Assembly: GCA_027078545.1 (NCBI GenBank)
Contig: JALWXN010000004.1
Location: forward strand, 454,737 to 518,736
DNA: 64,000 bases
Reading direction: 5' to 3'
Origin: Nitrososphaeria archaeon
GTDB lineage: Archaea; Thermoproteota; Nitrososphaeria; Geothermarchaeales; JDFR-13
The notes under the pieces are model-generated. The model did not search any database, was not told the origin of the DNA, and saw only the letters and a list, made by a program, of their open reading frames with translations. Every line of letters starts with the position of its first letter. The stretch's first letter is position 1. Made by a program: the position numbers and the translations under genes. This document shows positions 4,932-14,292 of this stretch, piece by piece.

Positions 4932-5557
4932 TGGGCTTCACAACCTATCTCCGCCAGAACCTGGGGGGCATCCTTCTATACATCTCCCTAGCTATACTCA
5001 CGTGGAGGATACATGACTATCTACACCTCCTCCTGGGTATGGAGGTCGTGGGCTTCGAGTCGTATATAGGGGCTGGGGATCCGATCCCATCTATACTCCC
5101 TTTGGTCTTCACAGCCATGGTGGCACTTGTGGGCGCCGTCCTGGTGGCTAGGGCGTCGGGTCTCCTAATGGTTGCGGGGTACTACCTCATACTCTTCAAC
5201 TCAACGGTTAACCTACTAGTCCTGCCACGGTATCTAGTCCCCCTCGGTGGGCCCTATGGATTGGAGGCTCTGGCTAGGCTGGGCGTCTCACTCCCCCTTA
5301 TCCCCCTATTGATCCTTGTCTCTAGGATGCCTAGGCTCGGCCTCAAGCCTAGCTGTGCATTCTGGCTCTCCGTATTGACCCTGGCTACGGTGGCTGGTGG
5401 CGTCTTCCTGGGCATCGCTACGTGGATCCTCTATGAGACGGGTTTCTGCGAACCGTTGGCAGGGATGCTTAGCTGTGGCGTCGCCTTCGACATTGGGGCA
5501 TTGTTGATACTCCCGCCAGCCACTCGGTGGGCCCTGGCCAGGTGGCTATCGGACTAG
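4931..5557 (+). CDS. Polytopic membrane protein of unknown function
   Basis: A 208-residue hydrophobic protein with six or seven predicted membrane helices. The start ATG at 4931 overlaps the UbiA stop (TGATG), which is why I prefer it to the in-frame start at 4898 that lies inside the UbiA gene. I recognise no family motif. Co-transcription with the UbiA prenyltransferase suggests a job in the same lipid or quinone step or in its membrane complex. Its 3' end overlaps the convergent crotonase gene by four bases. Confidence 0.6.
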   Translation: MGFTTYLRQNLGGILLYISLAILTWRIHDYLHLLLGMEVVGFESYIGAGDPIPSILPLVFTAMVALVGAVLVARASGLLMVAGYYLILFNSTVNLLVLPRYLVPLGGPYGLEALARLGVSLPLIPLLILVSRMPRLGLKPSCAFWLSVLTLATVAGGVFLGIATWILYETGFCEPLAGMLSCGVAFDIGALLILPPATRWALARWLSD

Positions 5558-6297
5558 CGCCTCTTCTCTATAAACCGCTTCATAAGTTCCTGGGCCTCAC
5601 TGGTGGCCATTAGCCTGGCCAGCTCCTCCTCTGCCTCGGGGTCTATCAACATGGCCTTATACCTATTGACTATCCTCTTTATACTCCTAAGGGTCTCCAG
5701 GGGTATCCCCAGCGTCTCCCTAGCAATCTCCACCGCCCTGGCCACTGGGTCCTCGCTTATCTCGTCGATCAGCCCTATGGATAGTGCCTCCTCGCTCGTG
5801 AGCCTCCTACCGGTCAGGCTGAGGTAGATGCTCCTCCTAAGCCCTATGACGGATGGCCCGGCCGATAGCATCAAGGGTGGTGAGAGGCCTATATATGCCT
5901 CTGGCACGGAGAATGTTGATCTCGGTGAGGCTACCACGCCGTCCATCAGGAGGAGTATCTCACATCCAGCCCCGAATGCATAGCCGTCAACGGCTGCGAA
6001 TATCGGTGTCTCGTAGCTGGCCACCGCCTCCAGTAGGGGCTTTATCAGGCCCATGACGATGTATCGGGTGTCCCTGATGTCTCTGGCCTCGGCCATCATG
6101 TAGATATCGTCTCCAGCCGAGAATGCCCTCCCGCTCCCCGTCACGACTGCTGGGTACTTCCCACTATACCTCCTAAGTATCCTTGTAAGCTCTATCCACA
6201 TCTCCTCGTCCAATGCGTTGAGCTTCTCCGGCCTGTTGAGGGTTATCCTGAGCACCCCATCCTCGACACTGTGTAGGACCTTCCCGGTCATACACAT
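5554..6297 (-). CDS. Enoyl-CoA hydratase/isomerase (crotonase) family protein
   Basis: A 247-residue crotonase-fold enzyme. The oxyanion-hole segments are SAGDDIYMM near residue 60 and AVDGYAFGAGCEI near residue 105. The two glutamates used by hydratases are present: one in GAGCEI and one in VPEAYIGLSPP. The usual family length is about 250-260. It could hydrate crotonyl- or other enoyl-CoA in fatty-acid or CO2-fixation pathways; the substrate is not determined by sequence. A second ATG two codons in (6291) is an equally possible start. Confidence 0.85.
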   Translation of the reverse strand: MCMTGKVLHSVEDGVLRITLNRPEKLNALDEEMWIELTRILRRYSGKYPAVVTGSGRAFSAGDDIYMMAEARDIRDTRYIVMGLIKPLLEAVASYETPIFAAVDGYAFGAGCEILLLMDGVVASPRSTFSVPEAYIGLSPPLMLSAGPSVIGLRRSIYLSLTGRRLTSEEALSIGLIDEISEDPVARAVEIARETLGIPLETLRSIKRIVNRYKAMLIDPEAEEELARLMATSEAQELMKRFIEKRR

Positions 6298-7859: not shown

Positions 7860-8414
7860 CTACTCCTTCTCCGCCTCCCTATGTAGCTCGCCCAGTAGCT
7901 TGGAGACCTCCTCCATCTTGAGGGCCTTGCCCACAGCACCCTTGAACGTCTCGAGTATGACGTGCTCGATGAAGTGCTGGGTGTAGCAGTAGGGACATGG
8001 CTTTAGGCTCTTAGCAACGCTTATAAGCTCGTCCCTCCTCCTATCCACAAGCTTCTTAATAGCCTTGACGACCTCTGGGGACACCTCATCTATCAGGGGC
8101 TGGATAAGCTCAGATATGTCCTCTGGCTCCTCATATAGATAGACGTTCTTGGAAGGCGCGTAGTACTTCAGTACGCCTCCCCTAACCTCCTCCACCTTGA
8201 CCAGCCTGATCAGCCCACTATCCCTGAGGACCTTCAGGTGATACCTGATCGCGTTTATACTCTTGTTGATCCCCCTCCTCCTCAGCTCCTCCTGGATGTC
8301 CTGTACACTCATGGGTCTCTCGCTGAGCATGTCGAGGATAGCGACCCTCACGTGGTCTGAGAGGGCCTTCACCTCGTCCAGCCTGAATACGTGGGGTATA
8401 CTCATCCTATGCAC
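7860..8414 (-). CDS. ArsR-type winged-helix regulator of the copper ATPase
   Basis: A 184-residue protein with an N-terminal winged helix (about residues 8-85: EVKALSDHVRVAILDMLSE, then INAIRYHLKVLRDSGLI, then a KYYAPS wing) and a C-terminal helical region carrying the possible metal site KPCPYCYTQHFIEH (two cysteines, two histidines). It is divergent from the P-type ATPase gene, and a perfect 26-bp palindrome lies between them. The likely role is a metal-responsive repressor of copA and of itself; the metal and sign of regulation are inference. An ATG at 8405 (residue 4) is a second possible start. Confidence 0.8.
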   Translation of the reverse strand: MHRMSIPHVFRLDEVKALSDHVRVAILDMLSERPMSVQDIQEELRRRGINKSINAIRYHLKVLRDSGLIRLVKVEEVRGGVLKYYAPSKNVYLYEEPEDISELIQPLIDEVSPEVVKAIKKLVDRRRDELISVAKSLKPCPYCYTQHFIEHVILETFKGAVGKALKMEEVSKLLGELHREAEKE

Positions 8415-8444
8415 CTCGCCACTAAATCTGTGTCCCGTGAAAAA

Positions 8445-8478
8445 ATTTATATACCACTACAAACCTATTTGTAGTGGT
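8445..8478. promoter_or_regulatory. Divergent promoter with perfect palindromic operator
   Basis: A TATA element (TTTATATA, about 8445-8452) is followed by ACCACTACAAA-CCTA-TTTGTAGTGGT (8453-8478). The arms are 11 bp and perfectly complementary, with a four-base gap. The palindrome covers the stretch between TATA box and expected start site of the P-type ATPase gene (ATG 8488), and the same TATA read backwards is correctly placed for the regulator gene. Binding would block both promoters. Confidence 0.8.
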
Positions 8479-8487
8479 TGTCCAGAG

Positions 8488-10923
8488 ATGACGGAGAACC
8501 AGGAGCAGAGGACCAAGGTCCGTGAGAGGATCAAGATCATAGGTATGCACTGCGCAACCTGTGCAGTAACTATTGAGAAGACATCTAAGCAGCTCCCAGG
8601 GGTTGAGAATGTAAGTGTGAGCCTGGCCCAGGAGGAGGCCGTGGTTGAGTATGACCCCTATAGCGTCTCCCTGAAGGACTTGGTGAAGGCCGTCAGGAAG
8701 GTTGGCTACGACGTATATAAGGAGGAGGCTAGGCTGATAGTTGAGAACCTCTCCTCCCCGGACGACGAGTCCCTGATCGAGAGTACACTATCTAGGATGC
8801 CCGGGGTGATAGACGTCAAGTCTTCCCACATATCCAAGGTTGTCTATGTAACGATAAACCCCTTCACCACGAGCTTCGAGGATGTTAAGGCGAAGCTGGA
8901 GGAGCTGGGCTATAGGGTGAAGGAGGTCGATACAAAGGCGGATGTGGAGGATATTGAGCGTAAGATTATTGAGGAGGAGCTCAGGACCCTCAAGAGGCAT
9001 GTCATCCTGAGCCTAGGCCTAGGCATCCCCCTAATGATCTACGTATTACTACCCGTCTTCGGGATAGAGCAGCCGCTGAAGGAGTTCAGCGGTTGGATAG
9101 GCTTCCTGCTCAGTACACCTGTGGTCTTCATAGCTGGTAGGCGGTTCTATCTCGGGGCATATAGGGCACTTAGGAATGGCGTTGCGAATATGGATACCCT
9201 TGTAGCCCTTGGCACGGGGGCTGCATACGTCTTCAGCACAGCGGCCCTACTAGGCCTCGTCGAGGCTGAGGAGGTCTTCTTCGAGGCCGCAGCTGTGGTG
9301 ATAGGCTTCATACTCCTTGGCAGATACCTAGAGGTCAAGATGAAGCTGAGGACTGGCGAGGCTGTCAGGAAGCTTATGGAGCTGCAGGCTGGTAAGGCCA
9401 GGGTTATCAGGGATGGGGAGGAGGTGGAGCTCCCCATTGATGAGGTGAGGGTTAAGGACGTAGTCGTTGTCAGGCCTGGGGAGAAGATCCCTGTAGATGG
9501 TATCATTGTGGAGGGCTCCGGATACGTGAATGAGTCCATGCTTACTGGGGAGAGTATACCCGTCTATAAGAAGGAGAGGGACCCCGTCTACGCGGGGACG
9601 ATCCTGGAGAACGGCTATATAAAAGTTATAGCAACCCGGGTAGGTAGGGAGACCGTCCTATCCCAGATAATTAAGCTGGTTAGGTATGCTCAGTCGGCGA
9701 AGCCACCTATACAGAAGACGGTGGATAGGATATCAGGGATATTCACCTGGCTCGTGATCGGGATAGCTATAACGACGTTCTCCATATGGTACTTCTACCT
9801 TGGCGTGGGACTCAGCAAGGCACTCCTATTCACGGCATCTGTACTACTCATCTCATGCCCATGTGCCCTCGGCCTCGCTGCCCCGACAGCAATCATAGTA
9901 GGTGTGGGAAAGGCCGCTGAGAAGGGTATCATCATAAGAAACATAGATGTCCTGGAGAAGGTGGATGAGCTGACTGTCTTCGTATTCGACAAGACAGGTA
10001 CCCTAACCATAGGTAAGCCCCAGGTGACGAGTATAAGGGCCTATAACGGATTCGAGGAGGAGTCTGTACTTAGGCTCGCAGCTATAGCAGAGAAGGGGAG
10101 TGAACATCCGATTGGAAAAGCCATTATAGAGGCCGCTGAGAAGCGTGGCCTCGAGCTGGGTGAGCCCGAGTCCTTCGACTACATCCCTGGACAGGGGATC
10201 TACGCTGTGATCGATGGCAAGACGGTGGTGGTTGGTAACGAGAAGCTGATGAAGGGATTCGAGATCGATGTAGAGGCGTCTCAGGAGGACGTCTCGAGGC
10301 TTAGGGACGAGGGGATGACCGTTGTATATGTAGCCGTCGACGGCGTCCTAGCGGGAATCGTGGCGGTGGCTGATGTCTTGAAGGATGATAGTGTAGAGAC
10401 TATTAACAGGCTTAGGGAGATGGGATACAGGATAGTCATGCTAACTGGTGACCATAGGAGGACGGCTGAAGCAATAGCCAGGAAGCTGGGTATAGACGAG
10501 GTCTACGCAGAGGTGAGCCCCGAGGATAAGGCGGATAAGGTAAGGGAACTTCAGAGGCGTGGTGAAAAGGTGGCCATGGTTGGTGATGGCGTAAATGATG
10601 CCCCCAGCCTTACACAGGCGGATGTAGGCTTCGCCATGGGTAGTGGGAGCGACATAGCTAAGGAGGCTGGAGACGTCATCATAGTGGGCAGCCGTATAAT
10701 GGCTGTTGTACAGTCGATAAGGATAAGCAGGATGATCAAGAGGAAGATAAAGTTCAACCTCTTCTGGGCATTCATATACAACACGCTCTTGATACCAGTG
10801 GCCGCTGGAATACTATATCCACTAGGGATCATACTGCGCCCCGAGCACGCGGGCTTCGCCATGGCTATGAGCTCGATATCAGTGACTAGCAACAGCCTAA
10901 GGATGAATATTCCCGAGGAGTAG
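8488..10923 (+). CDS. copA: Copper-type P1B ATPase
   Basis: An 811-residue heavy-metal P-type ATPase. HMA domain 1 has GMHCATC (C22, C25). A second HMA-like domain (about 75-150) has lost its CxxC. The membrane metal site is SCPCALG (C457, C459), the phosphorylated aspartate is D501 in DKTGTLT, the HP motif is SEHPIG (H540) and the hinge is GDGVNDAP (699-706). The CPC motif marks Cu(I)/Ag(I) exporters. I chose ATG 8488 rather than upstream in-frame starts because those lie in the regulator gene and before the promoter. It pumps monovalent copper out of the cytoplasm. Confidence 0.92.
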   Translation: MTENQEQRTKVRERIKIIGMHCATCAVTIEKTSKQLPGVENVSVSLAQEEAVVEYDPYSVSLKDLVKAVRKVGYDVYKEEARLIVENLSSPDDESLIESTLSRMPGVIDVKSSHISKVVYVTINPFTTSFEDVKAKLEELGYRVKEVDTKADVEDIERKIIEEELRTLKRHVILSLGLGIPLMIYVLLPVFGIEQPLKEFSGWIGFLLSTPVVFIAGRRFYLGAYRALRNGVANMDTLVALGTGAAYVFSTAALLGLVEAEEVFFEAAAVVIGFILLGRYLEVKMKLRTGEAVRKLMELQAGKARVIRDGEEVELPIDEVRVKDVVVVRPGEKIPVDGIIVEGSGYVNESMLTGESIPVYKKERDPVYAGTILENGYIKVIATRVGRETVLSQIIKLVRYAQSAKPPIQKTVDRISGIFTWLVIGIAITTFSIWYFYLGVGLSKALLFTASVLLISCPCALGLAAPTAIIVGVGKAAEKGIIIRNIDVLEKVDELTVFVFDKTGTLTIGKPQVTSIRAYNGFEEESVLRLAAIAEKGSEHPIGKAIIEAAEKRGLELGEPESFDYIPGQGIYAVIDGKTVVVGNEKLMKGFEIDVEASQEDVSRLRDEGMTVVYVAVDGVLAGIVAVADVLKDDSVETINRLREMGYRIVMLTGDHRRTAEAIARKLGIDEVYAEVSPEDKADKVRELQRRGEKVAMVGDGVNDAPSLTQADVGFAMGSGSDIAKEAGDVIIVGSRIMAVVQSIRISRMIKRKIKFNLFWAFIYNTLLIPVAAGILYPLGIILRPEHAGFAMAMSSISVTSNSLRMNIPEE

Positions 10924-10941
10924 GGCTAAGCACGACAAAAA

Positions 10942-10970
10942 CATTTTTATCGGTTTAAATCTTTTTGTAG
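10942..10970 (+). promoter_or_regulatory. Promoter of the YHS/His-rich gene with an operator half-site
   Basis: CATTTTTATC at 10942-10951 fits an archaeal TATA box about 46 bases before the ATG at 10997. TTTGTAG at 10964-10970 equals the right-hand half of the copA palindrome (TTTGTAGTGGT), but the left half is not recognisable. It may be a weak site of the same regulator. Confidence 0.35.
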
Positions 10971-10996
10971 CCAGTTGAATATGTGAGGTGTTCAAT

Positions 10997-11278
10997 ATGC
11001 CTATCGACCCTGTCTGTGGGATGGAGGTAGAGCCTTCTACAGCAGCTGCGAAGACTGTCTACAAGGGTACGATCTACTACTTCTGTAGCCCAATGTGTAA
11101 GAAGGCCTTCGAGGAGAGGCCTGACTACTACCTTGAGCATGGTCCCCAGGGTATGCCAGGTATGGAGGGTCATGGTGGGCATGGCCATCATGGACAGCAT
11201 GGCCATCATCATGGGCATCATGGGCATCACCATGAGGAGGAGCATAAGGGCGGCGGTGGCTGTGGCTGCTGCTCCTAG
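10997..11278 (+). CDS. YHS-domain protein with His-rich tail (metal binding)
   Basis: A 93-residue protein. Residues 1-45 form a YHS/TRASH-like metal domain: DPVCGMEV, then YYFCSPMCKKAFEERPDYYL. After it comes a tail of repeated HGG, HHG, HHH units and a final GCGCCS. The ATG at 10997 is preceded by GAGGTG, a good ribosome site; an in-frame GTG three codons upstream is less likely. Lying directly downstream of copA, it is likely a cytoplasmic copper (or other soft metal) buffer or chaperone that hands ions to the pump. The metal is inference. Confidence 0.8.
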   Translation: MPIDPVCGMEVEPSTAAAKTVYKGTIYYFCSPMCKKAFEERPDYYLEHGPQGMPGMEGHGGHGHHGQHGHHHGHHGHHHEEEHKGGGGCGCCS

Positions 11279-12079: not shown

Positions 12080-13174
12080 ATGCAGGATCTCTTGAGGTGG
12101 GACATCGCCTCGGGCATACTCACTCTCGCTGGTGTGTTGACGCTGATAAATGTTCCCAACCCCTTCGTCGGGTATGGCCTGATCATCCCCGCCATGATAA
12201 TCTCCTCGCTACACCCAGTGAGGGGGAGGGGTGGCCTGATCTTCGCTGCTGTCCACCTCCTCGGGGCGGCTATACTTATCTATACGGCCTCGATGTTCGC
12301 GCTGGTCGTGGTTCTAAGCCTCGTATTCAGGTCTGCCACAGTCTTCCTCGTGAATAGGTATGGCGGCCTAGGCTTCCTGACAACCTCTCTACTGATAGTC
12401 CTTCTCGATACGCTCATCGCGCTCTCACTAGGCCTCGCCTATTTTGGTAGGGACGCTATAGACGTTGGACTGGATATCCATAGCGCCTTCCTCATACCCT
12501 TCACACACCTCATCTATAAGGGGCTTAGGGATGGGAAGAACAGCCTTGTATATATAGGCTCCATATCCATGGCTGGCTACTTCCTCGGGATCTCTTATTT
12601 CCCAGCCCTCCTACTTGTTGCGGCTTCACTAGTCGGCCTGGGGATCGGCTACTTCTCACAGATGGATAGGGCCTCCACAGTCCTGGCAACACTCCTAGTC
12701 ATTGGGGGAGCCCTAGCCTCTACCCCTACGCTACTATATACTCTCCAGGTGGTGGCCTACCCCTTGCAGCCAGCCTCATGGACTGGTGAGCAGTGGATGA
12801 ACCCCGGTGCGGAGGAGCCTTGTAAGGAGTTTGTTATGGATGGTGTCTGGGGCCCTGAGAGGCTACGGATAGTAGATGGCTGCGTAACTGTCGAGGGTGT
12901 AGTGGTTAGCCATCCCAACACGGTGGAGGATGGGGATATAGTCTTCGATATAGAGCTTGACCCTGAGTATAGATACATGCTTAGCACCGGGTCATACGTA
13001 TTGAGGAAGGGGTATATCCATGTAGAGATAGTCCCTCTGGATAGGGATGAGGTCTACGTCCCTAAGAAGGGTGAACGGGTAAGGATAACCGGTGCATGGG
13101 TAGTGGACACTGATCATGGGTCCTGGGCGGAGATACACCCTGCATGGAGGATAGAGGTCATCGAGGAGGCCTAG
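12080..13174 (+). CDS. Membrane protein with C-terminal OB-like domain
   Basis: A 364-residue two-part protein. Residues 1-235 are strongly hydrophobic with about eight membrane helices. Residues 245-364 are soluble and end in GERVRITGAWVVDTDHGSWAEIHPAWRIE, a stretch like that of small OB-like domains found after secreted or membrane parts in other prokaryotes. The soluble part has two cysteines (EEPCKEF and VDGCVTV) that could form a disulfide outside the cell. I know no function. It sits between panB and the Met-rich pair, without overlap. Confidence 0.55.
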   Translation: MQDLLRWDIASGILTLAGVLTLINVPNPFVGYGLIIPAMIISSLHPVRGRGGLIFAAVHLLGAAILIYTASMFALVVVLSLVFRSATVFLVNRYGGLGFLTTSLLIVLLDTLIALSLGLAYFGRDAIDVGLDIHSAFLIPFTHLIYKGLRDGKNSLVYIGSISMAGYFLGISYFPALLLVAASLVGLGIGYFSQMDRASTVLATLLVIGGALASTPTLLYTLQVVAYPLQPASWTGEQWMNPGAEEPCKEFVMDGVWGPERLRIVDGCVTVEGVVVSHPNTVEDGDIVFDIELDPEYRYMLSTGSYVLRKGYIHVEIVPLDRDEVYVPKKGERVRITGAWVVDTDHGSWAEIHPAWRIEVIEEA

Positions 13175-13219: not shown

Positions 13220-13792
13220 ATGACTGACGACGCCGTGAGGCTTGTATTGGCAATCGTGTTGATCCTACTCATAGGCATATTCCTCATACCACTTTTGATG
13301 ATGCTCTTCATGGGCTTCCAGTTCTCCATGCCCATGATGCAGGGCATGATGGGGGACGGTGCACATATGTTCGGGATGTTCATACCCTTCTGGTCCGTCT
13401 TCCTGATCCTATTGGTCCTCCTGGCCGGGGTGATATACCTCCTCTCGACGGATAGGGGGAGGGGCCTATATACTCGTGAGGGTGGAAGGGTGGTTGTAGA
13501 GCCCGTGGCTAGGGAGGAGGCTAGGGATGATGCTGTGGAGCGGGGTGATGAGGAGCCTGAGATAATGAGGGTCTTGAAGCCTGATGAGCGCCGTGTAGTT
13601 GAGCTCCTGATCGAGAATGGGGGTGTGATGCTCCAGAAGGATCTCAGGTGGGAGCTGGGCATGAATAGGGTGCAGATACATAGGATCCTTGAGAGGCTGG
13701 AGGAGCGTAACATCATTGTCAGACGGTCTGTAGGGAATACTAATGAGGTTCGCCTGGCGGACTGGTTGATGAAGCGTTACAAACGGGAGTAG
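13220..13792 (+). CDS. Membrane-anchored winged-helix regulator with Met-rich outer loop
   Basis: A 190-residue protein in four parts: helix 1 (about 7-31), a short Met-rich loop FSMPMMQGMMGDGAHMFGM (35-53), helix 2 (about 55-76) and, after a charged linker, a winged-helix domain (about 118-186: LKPDERRVVELLIENGG, RWELGMNRVQIHRILERLEERNIIVRR). With the DNA-binding domain inside, the Met-rich loop faces outwards, as expected for a sensor of Cu(I)/Ag(I). The next gene encodes a secreted Met-rich protein behind a GTTAC-repeat promoter. One-component transmembrane regulation of that gene is my inference; no close relative is known to me by function. Confidence 0.7.
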   Translation: MTDDAVRLVLAIVLILLIGIFLIPLLMMLFMGFQFSMPMMQGMMGDGAHMFGMFIPFWSVFLILLVLLAGVIYLLSTDRGRGLYTREGGRVVVEPVAREEARDDAVERGDEEPEIMRVLKPDERRVVELLIENGGVMLQKDLRWELGMNRVQIHRILERLEERNIIVRRSVGNTNEVRLADWLMKRYKRE

Positions 13793-13797
13793 GGGGT

Positions 13798-13829
13798 CGT
13801 TACAGGCGTTACACGTAACTACTATATAA
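13798..13829 (+). promoter_or_regulatory. GTTAC-repeat operator and TATA box of the Met-rich gene
   Basis: CGTTAC occurs at 13798-13803 and 13807-13812. The second copy is half of GTTACACGTAAC (13808-13819), a palindrome with five-base arms. A third CGTTAC is at 13775-13780, inside the end of the preceding gene. TATATAA follows at 13823-13829, and the next ATG-like start is at 13864. Sites just upstream of the TATA box in archaea usually recruit factors or compete with TFB, so the membrane winged-helix protein is a natural candidate ligand. Confidence 0.6.
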
Positions 13830-13863
13830 CGTTTCAGCAGATGGACTACCCGGTGAAAGCGGT

Positions 13864-14292
13864 ATGAGGACTGGATACCTCGTGTTGATACTGGCTGGAC
13901 TACTCGGACTGGGGATAGCGGCTGCCTACACTACGCAGCAGGTCTGGATGTGGTGGCCGATGCCTATGCAGATGGGCGTGCCTATGCAGGGCATGGGCGG
14001 TATGCCCGGTGGTATGCAGGGTGGCATGATGAACGGTATGCAGGGCGGTATGATGAATGGTATGCCTGGAGGGATGATGGGCGGCATGGGCCAGCCCATG
14101 GCTGGGGATCACGGTGGTATGATGGGTGGCATGAACGGCATGGGTGGAATGGGTGGTATGGGCCAGATGGATTGTGAGTCGATGATGGCTCAGCACCAGG
14201 CCATGATGGAGTCGATGATGGCTAATATGGAGCAGTGCATGTCGATGATGGAGAGCCACATGGCTGGCCATGGAGAGGGCGGGTCCCACTAG
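13864..14292 (+). CDS. Secreted Met-rich protein, probable extracytoplasmic copper binder
   Basis: A 142-residue protein with a signal peptide or membrane anchor (MRTGYLVLILAGLLGLGIAA) followed by W/M-rich WMWWPMPMQM and then repeated GGM, GGMM and NGM units, with two cysteines (MDCESMM, MEQCMSMM) and a final HMAGHGEGGSH. Methionine-dense, Gly-rich segments of this kind bind Cu(I) in known copper proteins (PcoE, CopC-type Met motifs), so metal sequestration outside the membrane is likely. No defined fold is visible. It begins 71 bases after the membrane winged-helix gene behind its own promoter. Confidence 0.75.
   Translation: MRTGYLVLILAGLLGLGIAAAYTTQQVWMWWPMPMQMGVPMQGMGGMPGGMQGGMMNGMQGGMMNGMPGGMMGGMGQPMAGDHGGMMGGMNGMGGMGGMGQMDCESMMAQHQAMMESMMANMEQCMSMMESHMAGHGEGGSH

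Follow-up and report, generated by a model that had tools for sequence, protein, structure and literature searches.

The window, by which we mean the whole analysed stretch of 64,000 nucleotides, is part of a 1.24-Mb archaeal MAG and encodes a membrane one-component regulator (hereafter the sensor) that is likely to capture a soft metal, with Cu(I) the likeliest, outside the cell in an MxxMM loop and to control an exported Met-rich gene through GTTWCA sites. The sensor and the Met-rich gene probably form a real, conserved and copper-responsive membrane one-component system. In the proposed mechanism, the sensor would stay in the membrane, and a three-Met site on one helix face of its outer loop would take up the metal. 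The two membrane helices would relay the metal-induced change to a winged helix in the cytoplasm, which would act on direct GTTWCA repeats around the BRE and TATA box of the next gene and control that single gene. The exported product would use its Met repeats to bind this metal, serving in the family of the window as a buffer or chaperone, while in sister families the exported partner would be a Met-rich blue-copper protein binding the same metal. The sensor gene comprised the following features:

13220..13792, + strand: sensor, a membrane-spanning DUF7343 winged-helix regulator (190 aa)
13292..13387, + strand: codons of the Met-dense loop (residues 25–56, 10 Met in 32 residues)
13337–13339 and 13346–13351, + strand: codons of MxxMM (M40, M43 and M44), invariant in 16 diverse Met-loop homologues
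13580..13756, + strand: predicted winged-helix DNA-binding domain, PF24034 (residues 121–179)

Transmembrane segments were located at residues 8–26 and 57–75, and the C-terminus matched PF24034 at 40 bits, against a curated cut-off of 27.6 (E = 3.5e-10), placing the protein in DUF7343. The AlphaFold2 model had helices at residues 3–34 and 43–80 and, starting near residue 120, a winged helix modelled with confidence. Together with the composition, these results confirmed the two membrane helices, Met-dense loop and winged helix described in a first-pass annotation of the DNA. Foldseek returned generic MarR/ArsR winged helices as the nearest solved folds, and a sequence search of solved structures gave one weak response-regulator match and nothing else. 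Pfam matched neither HAMP nor TRASH in the sensor, which has two transmembrane helices instead of a TRASH domain. Topology and signal direction, as given above, are what we infer. The nearest named record came from a Candidatus Geothermarchaeota MAG, with 89% identity over the sensor. A 143-aa protein (G000:C4:706141), considered as a second homologue, was weakly alike over the helices only and was set aside as looking like chance membrane-helix similarity. Directly upstream of the sensor, at 12080–13174, the window encodes a multi-helix membrane protein without a Pfam match, a homologue of which stands a few genes off in G001 and G003.

Proteins combining a DNA-binding domain and membrane segments, the TTRs of the CadC/ToxR type, are common and also occur in archaea (PMC10269533). 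The sensor has this structure and differs in its C-terminal DUF7343 winged helix, two helices and Met loop; copper is not mentioned in the text on TTRs (PMC10269533). The first-pass annotation had named no described archaeal system of this form, but ArnR and ArnR1 of Sulfolobus acidocaldarius are membrane-bound one-component regulators with two membrane helices and a paired-box promoter (PMC6396743), features that the sensor appears to share. ArnR, however, has an N-terminal HTH, a HAMP/sensor region and C-terminal helices, the opposite order, which leaves the sensor outside that family, and, unlike what is proposed for the sensor, ArnR and ArnR1 answer to starvation and target the archaellum and pilus. 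Membrane-bound one-component regulators are thus already known in archaea, whereas the combination of sensor, DNA switch and partner seems undescribed; no paper on this sensor family was found in the open-access literature, and none relevant naming COG2512, DUF7343 or PF24034.

The next gene encodes the partner:

13864..14292, + strand: secreted Met-rich protein, the presumed target gene (142 aa; 37 Met, 26%; 2 Cys; 5 His)

Its single N-terminal hydrophobic segment and composition agreed with the earlier reading of a secreted Met-rich protein, and it was the only called gene of the window with more than 8% Met, an antisense artefact aside. The protein had no match in Pfam (E ≤ 1) or NCBIfam (E ≤ 0.01) and, unlike the partners in sister families, carried no C-terminal PF00127 cupredoxin domain. 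In SilE and PcoE, Met/His clusters with residues spaced i, i+3/4 bind Cu(I)/Ag(I) (PMC5008109). The window partner is like these sponges in being small, exported and of low complexity, but they are bacterial, use His/Met motifs (HxxM, MxxH) and have other regulators; no sequence relationship was found between them and the window partner, with its 37 Met and 5 His.

The end of the sensor gene and the intergenic region contained the following elements:

13776..13781, + strand: GTTACA copy inside the sensor gene end, conserved in G002 only and probably outside the core operator
13799..13804, + strand: putative operator copy 1, GTTACA, from repeats and conservation
13808..13813, + strand: putative operator copy 2, GTTACA, abutting the BRE on its 5' side
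13814..13819, + strand: probable BRE, CGTAAC, identified from position and conservation (semi-conserved as CRAAC in relatives)
13823..13829, + strand: TATA box, TATATAA, from sequence
13831..13836, + strand: putative operator copy 3, GTTTCA, 23 bp from copy 2, between the TATA box and the start codon, conserved

As first annotated, CGTTAC occurs at 13775, 13798 and 13807, GTTACACGTAAC at 13808–13819, and the TATA box follows. The GTTTCA at 13831 had been missed, and the 13775 copy, which lies in the sensor gene, was rejected as part of the operator, having no conserved counterpart in G001 and G003 and being shared only with G002, a near-identical genome. A set of three GTTWCR copies on one strand within 45 bp was unique in the window, and the cluster is not due to chance because none of 200 shuffles of the window contained one. 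The palindrome GTTACACGTAAC, earlier taken for the operator, occurs once in the whole 1.24-Mb genome. It was abandoned since relatives have GTTACACGCAAC, GTTACAGGCAAC, GTTTCAAGTACC and GTTTCACGGAAC; its right half falls at the BRE position. The operator is likely formed by direct GTTWCA repeats around the TATA box and next to the BRE, with GTTACACGTAAC being a half-site beside the BRE, the likely site of TFB. As to the sign of control, which we infer, the position of the sites against the BRE and the weak TATA boxes of many partners tip the balance slightly towards activation; at the window promoter, where a strong TATA box is flanked on both sides and one copy lies downstream of it, repression could fit equally.

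A full-length sensor homologue was present in 10 of the 11 analysed genomes of the GTDB family, and the pair of sensor and Met-rich gene was kept, co-directional, in all four genomes of the window's genus, although in G001 the contig ends within the Met-rich gene. The arrangement is convergent in G006 and G009, where the sensor faces a small secreted gene rich in Met/His/Cys. The promoters have a common order of GTTWCA, BRE-like CRAAC, TATA box and GTTTCR, the last exactly 23 bp past the first copy (GTTACACGTAACTACTATATAACGTTTCA in the window, GTTACAGGCAACATCCATATATCGTTTCA in G001, GTTTCAAGTACCTTCTAAATAATGTTTCA in G003 and GTTTCACGGAACTGTTATATAATGTTTCA in G006), so that the GTTAC repeats to be looked for upstream in relatives were recovered as conserved GTTWC sites. 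GTTWCA-N17-GTTTCR around the TATA box was present in four genera of the family. The exact sequence CGTTWCANNYGTTWCA occurred once per genome in all four genomes of the genus, always at this promoter; the pattern was built from these same sites, and its informative part is the absence elsewhere. Built on promoters of genus g1 and G006, the straddling pattern also turned up in two genera that had played no part in its derivation. It was found with one mismatch in G005, just upstream of a 19%-Met secreted gene at 0.16 Mb, on the same contig as the sensor at 1.65 Mb, and with two mismatches in G004, just upstream of a 20%-Met secreted gene on a different contig from the sensor. Exact GTTTCR-N17-GTTTCR had four matches in the 11 genomes, each at a Met-rich gene, against five for the reversed-pattern control (both strands). 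G007, the sole family genome without a detected sensor, had no detected Met-rich gene either; in G008 and G010 (72–74% complete) the sensor was present and the Met-rich partner was not found.

These conserved operators support the idea that the sensor may control transcription while anchored in the membrane. Low-complexity genes are prone to over-reading, but the reading that a low-complexity Met-rich ORF and fortuitous repeats merely happen to lie next to an ordinary membrane protein is refuted by conservation over genera, families and classes and can be practically dismissed. Another GTTTCA-rich place, G000:C4:151489 (L112, about 5480–5700), is a GTTTCA/TGAAAC cluster with G-runs beside an Orc1/Cdc6-like ATPase gene and is also found in G002; considered as a regulatory target, it was rejected as looking like replication-origin (ORB) boxes.

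Sensor homologues were detected in 56 of 400 genomes of the class and had two loop types. MxxMM occurred in the loop of all 26 Met-loop sensors examined (defined by at least 4 Met in the loop) and in none of 26 others. An alignment of 16 diverse Met-loop sensors had invariant M42, M45 and M46 in the numbering of its first row, equivalent to M40, M43 and M44 in the window protein. The proposed search for the gene pair in other archaeal genomes did find Met-loop homologues near Met-rich genes: a Met-rich single-helix secreted neighbour stood within 2.5 kb of 17 of the 26 Met-loop sensors, in eight GTDB families, and of none of the 26 others, a contrast for which the Fisher test ignores relatedness. 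The tree needs only about three loop-type changes, so independent-pair tests have no power, and the apparent association of loop and partner rests on few independent changes.

Most sensors with a Met-free loop adjoin a 3-helix DUF6114-like membrane protein, a combination that looks like a further branch of this system. GTTTCA was found upstream of the 3-helix partner in 10 of 10 promoters (families f5–f7), as opposed to 11 of 165 control promoters taken from these loci, and together with the overlapping TGTTTC it led the ranking of all hexamers for these promoters. The GTTTCA copies often abut the BRE, e.g., GTTTCAGGCAACATCTATTAA, exactly as in the window. More than one sensor was present in genomes G170, G174 and G348, and in G174 each loop type adjoins its own partner type. 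Met-free DUF7343 sensors beside a 3-helix DUF6114-like protein, often with GTTTCA in the promoter, were seen in L043–L052, L163, L164, L167, L170–L172, L174, L176, L179 and L183.

Loop and partner composition co-vary, Met with Met, Cys-His-Met with Met-rich cupredoxin, and Met-free with 3-helix protein, which would favour a loop that reads the secreted partner rather than a metal. As in feedback by CpxP or ZraP, the partner would hold the regulator until titrated by metal or damage. This is improbable, however, considering that the loop has only about 30 residues, that the invariance of MxxMM looks like a metal site, and that the partners vary too much in sequence to keep up a conserved contact between proteins. 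Direct metal uptake by the loop is kept as the preferred reading.

The pattern GTTTCAN{3,7}GTTTCANCRAAC had eight matches in the 400 class genomes, all eight at a Met-rich partner beside a Met-loop sensor, and was absent from all 344 class genomes without a sensor; it was written after such promoters had been seen, so that what it adds is the absence elsewhere. In an out-of-sample set from the phylum, with nearly all loci from other classes, the adjacent promoter carried at least two sites in 21 of 33 loci, mostly 11 bp apart, and three of the four non-adjacent promoters with at least two sites lay in sensor loci with partner-like genes. The sensor's own promoter had an array of at least two copies in 1 of the 33 loci of this set, and autoregulation by a GTTWCA site was therefore dropped. 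The genome has other winged-helix genes, and binding of the sensor to DNA is a sequence-based prediction, so the repeats might be bound by a different, soluble regulator to which the membrane protein is merely genetically linked. We consider this very unlikely: the same repeats occur at the partner, whatever its type, in sub-lineages of the membrane regulator, and none of the 344 class genomes that lack this regulator has the strict array. The predicted domains, putative operator and gene pairing are shown by genome comparison, and recognition of the GTTWCA operator by the sensor is strongly implied.

Across Thermoproteota, the predicted sensor usually stands beside a small secreted or membrane gene with a GTTWCA array next to the BRE. 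This may well reflect, with somewhat less assurance than for the window pair, a phylum-wide family of membrane one-component metal sensors, each with its own dedicated GTTWCA/BRE operator and one exported metal-handling partner, in which loop chemistry co-varies with the partner (Met-rich, Met-rich cupredoxin, Cys-rich or three-helix membrane protein) and outside copper is read without a kinase. Small exported Cys- and Asn/Gln-rich proteins were seen beside related sensors in L224, L225, L228, L232 and L235–L241, where the partner promoters carry two to four GTTTCA/GTTACA sites, 11–13 or about 22 bp apart; such partners possibly serve a different metal or signal. The partner in L161, L221, L230 and L242 has a PepSY-like region instead of a cupredoxin domain, with PepSY below the Pfam cut-off in L221. 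In f25, f47 and f57, which belong to other classes, the secreted proteins found with similar sensors are Cys/Asn/Gln-rich or PepSY-like, and other classes may therefore use other signals. With such partners, or DUF6114-like ones, copper need not be the signal across the whole sensor family.

For the Met-loop sensors, the earlier link to copper gained support from partners in other families and from genes nearby in two genera. Met-rich partners in class families f11, f14, f16, f18, f19, f21 and f24 have a C-terminal PF00127 domain (plastocyanin/azurin-type) that scored above cut-off, and the partner of f45, from another class, had PF00127 above cut-off and sulfocyanin SoxE. The cupredoxin-bearing partners and the invariant MxxMM favour a signal that is copper or some other soft metal. 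Counting against this, the partner has no cupredoxin domain in the family of the window itself. Genes for copper handling lie 2–5 kb upstream of the sensor in the window:

7860..8414, − strand: ArsR-type winged-helix regulator divergent from copA, a probable separate cytosolic metal sensor (context)
8485..10923, + strand: CopA, a P1B ATPase of the copper type, with HMA domains (context; the listed ORF begins at 8263 but probably starts at 8485)
10988..11278, + strand: YHS-domain His/Cys-rich small protein beside copA (context)

The window and G002 both have CopA and YHS genes close to the sensor. In G005, the sensor adjoins a separate gene of the CopR/CopT kind, which is of Lrp type and has a TRASH-like CDYC at its end, together with genes for an ArsR-type protein, a YHS protein and a CopA-type ATPase. 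Neither strict operator pattern matched the copA promoter, and efflux therefore seems to be under a separate sensor; the region 7860–11278 is probably a separate copper efflux cluster that senses the cytosol. The ArsR-type regulator of the window ends with a C-terminal CPYC.

Met chemistry would also fit a loop that senses oxidants, through Met oxidation, or a soft metal other than copper, for instance Ag or Hg, with the regulator, operator and target unchanged and the Met-rich protein acting as an oxidant or metal sink, and partners elsewhere are Cys-rich rather than Met-rich. Against this stand the copper domains of plastocyanin/sulfocyanin type that the partner carries in eight families and the CopA neighbours in two genera, and we regard it as unlikely. 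Cu(I) remains the preferred ligand, as suggested by the Met sites, the cupredoxin partners and the neighbouring copper genes.

CusS/CusR senses copper beyond the cytoplasmic membrane and regulates genes that handle it there, by means of two proteins and phosphotransfer. The sensor would share the envelope copper sensing, as proposed, but is a single protein with no phosphotransfer pair. Archaeal CopR/CopT are copper-responsive regulators of HTH and TRASH domains encoded near copA (PMC7830388). They sense copper by the TRASH domain, lack membrane helices and control copA, whereas the sensor lacks the HTH plus C-terminal TRASH arrangement. The described archaeal copper regulators are such HTH-TRASH proteins without membrane helices (PMC7830388); if the proposed mechanism is true, one protein that both senses external metal and acts on DNA would give archaea a cell-surface watch without a kinase. 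DUF7343 would gain a predicted binding site and a likely function. An explicit operator, GTTWCA next to the BRE, and a blue-copper partner in many lineages, perhaps cultivable, make the idea testable. Family f45 has single-contig genomes and sulfocyanin-like partners. In this family (L244, L245, L246, L250 and L251), the loop is Cys/His/Met-rich, with YYHCMGMMCGMM in several members, the partner is a sulfocyanin-like cupredoxin, and L244 and L245 carry GGTTACAC repeats 12 bp apart.
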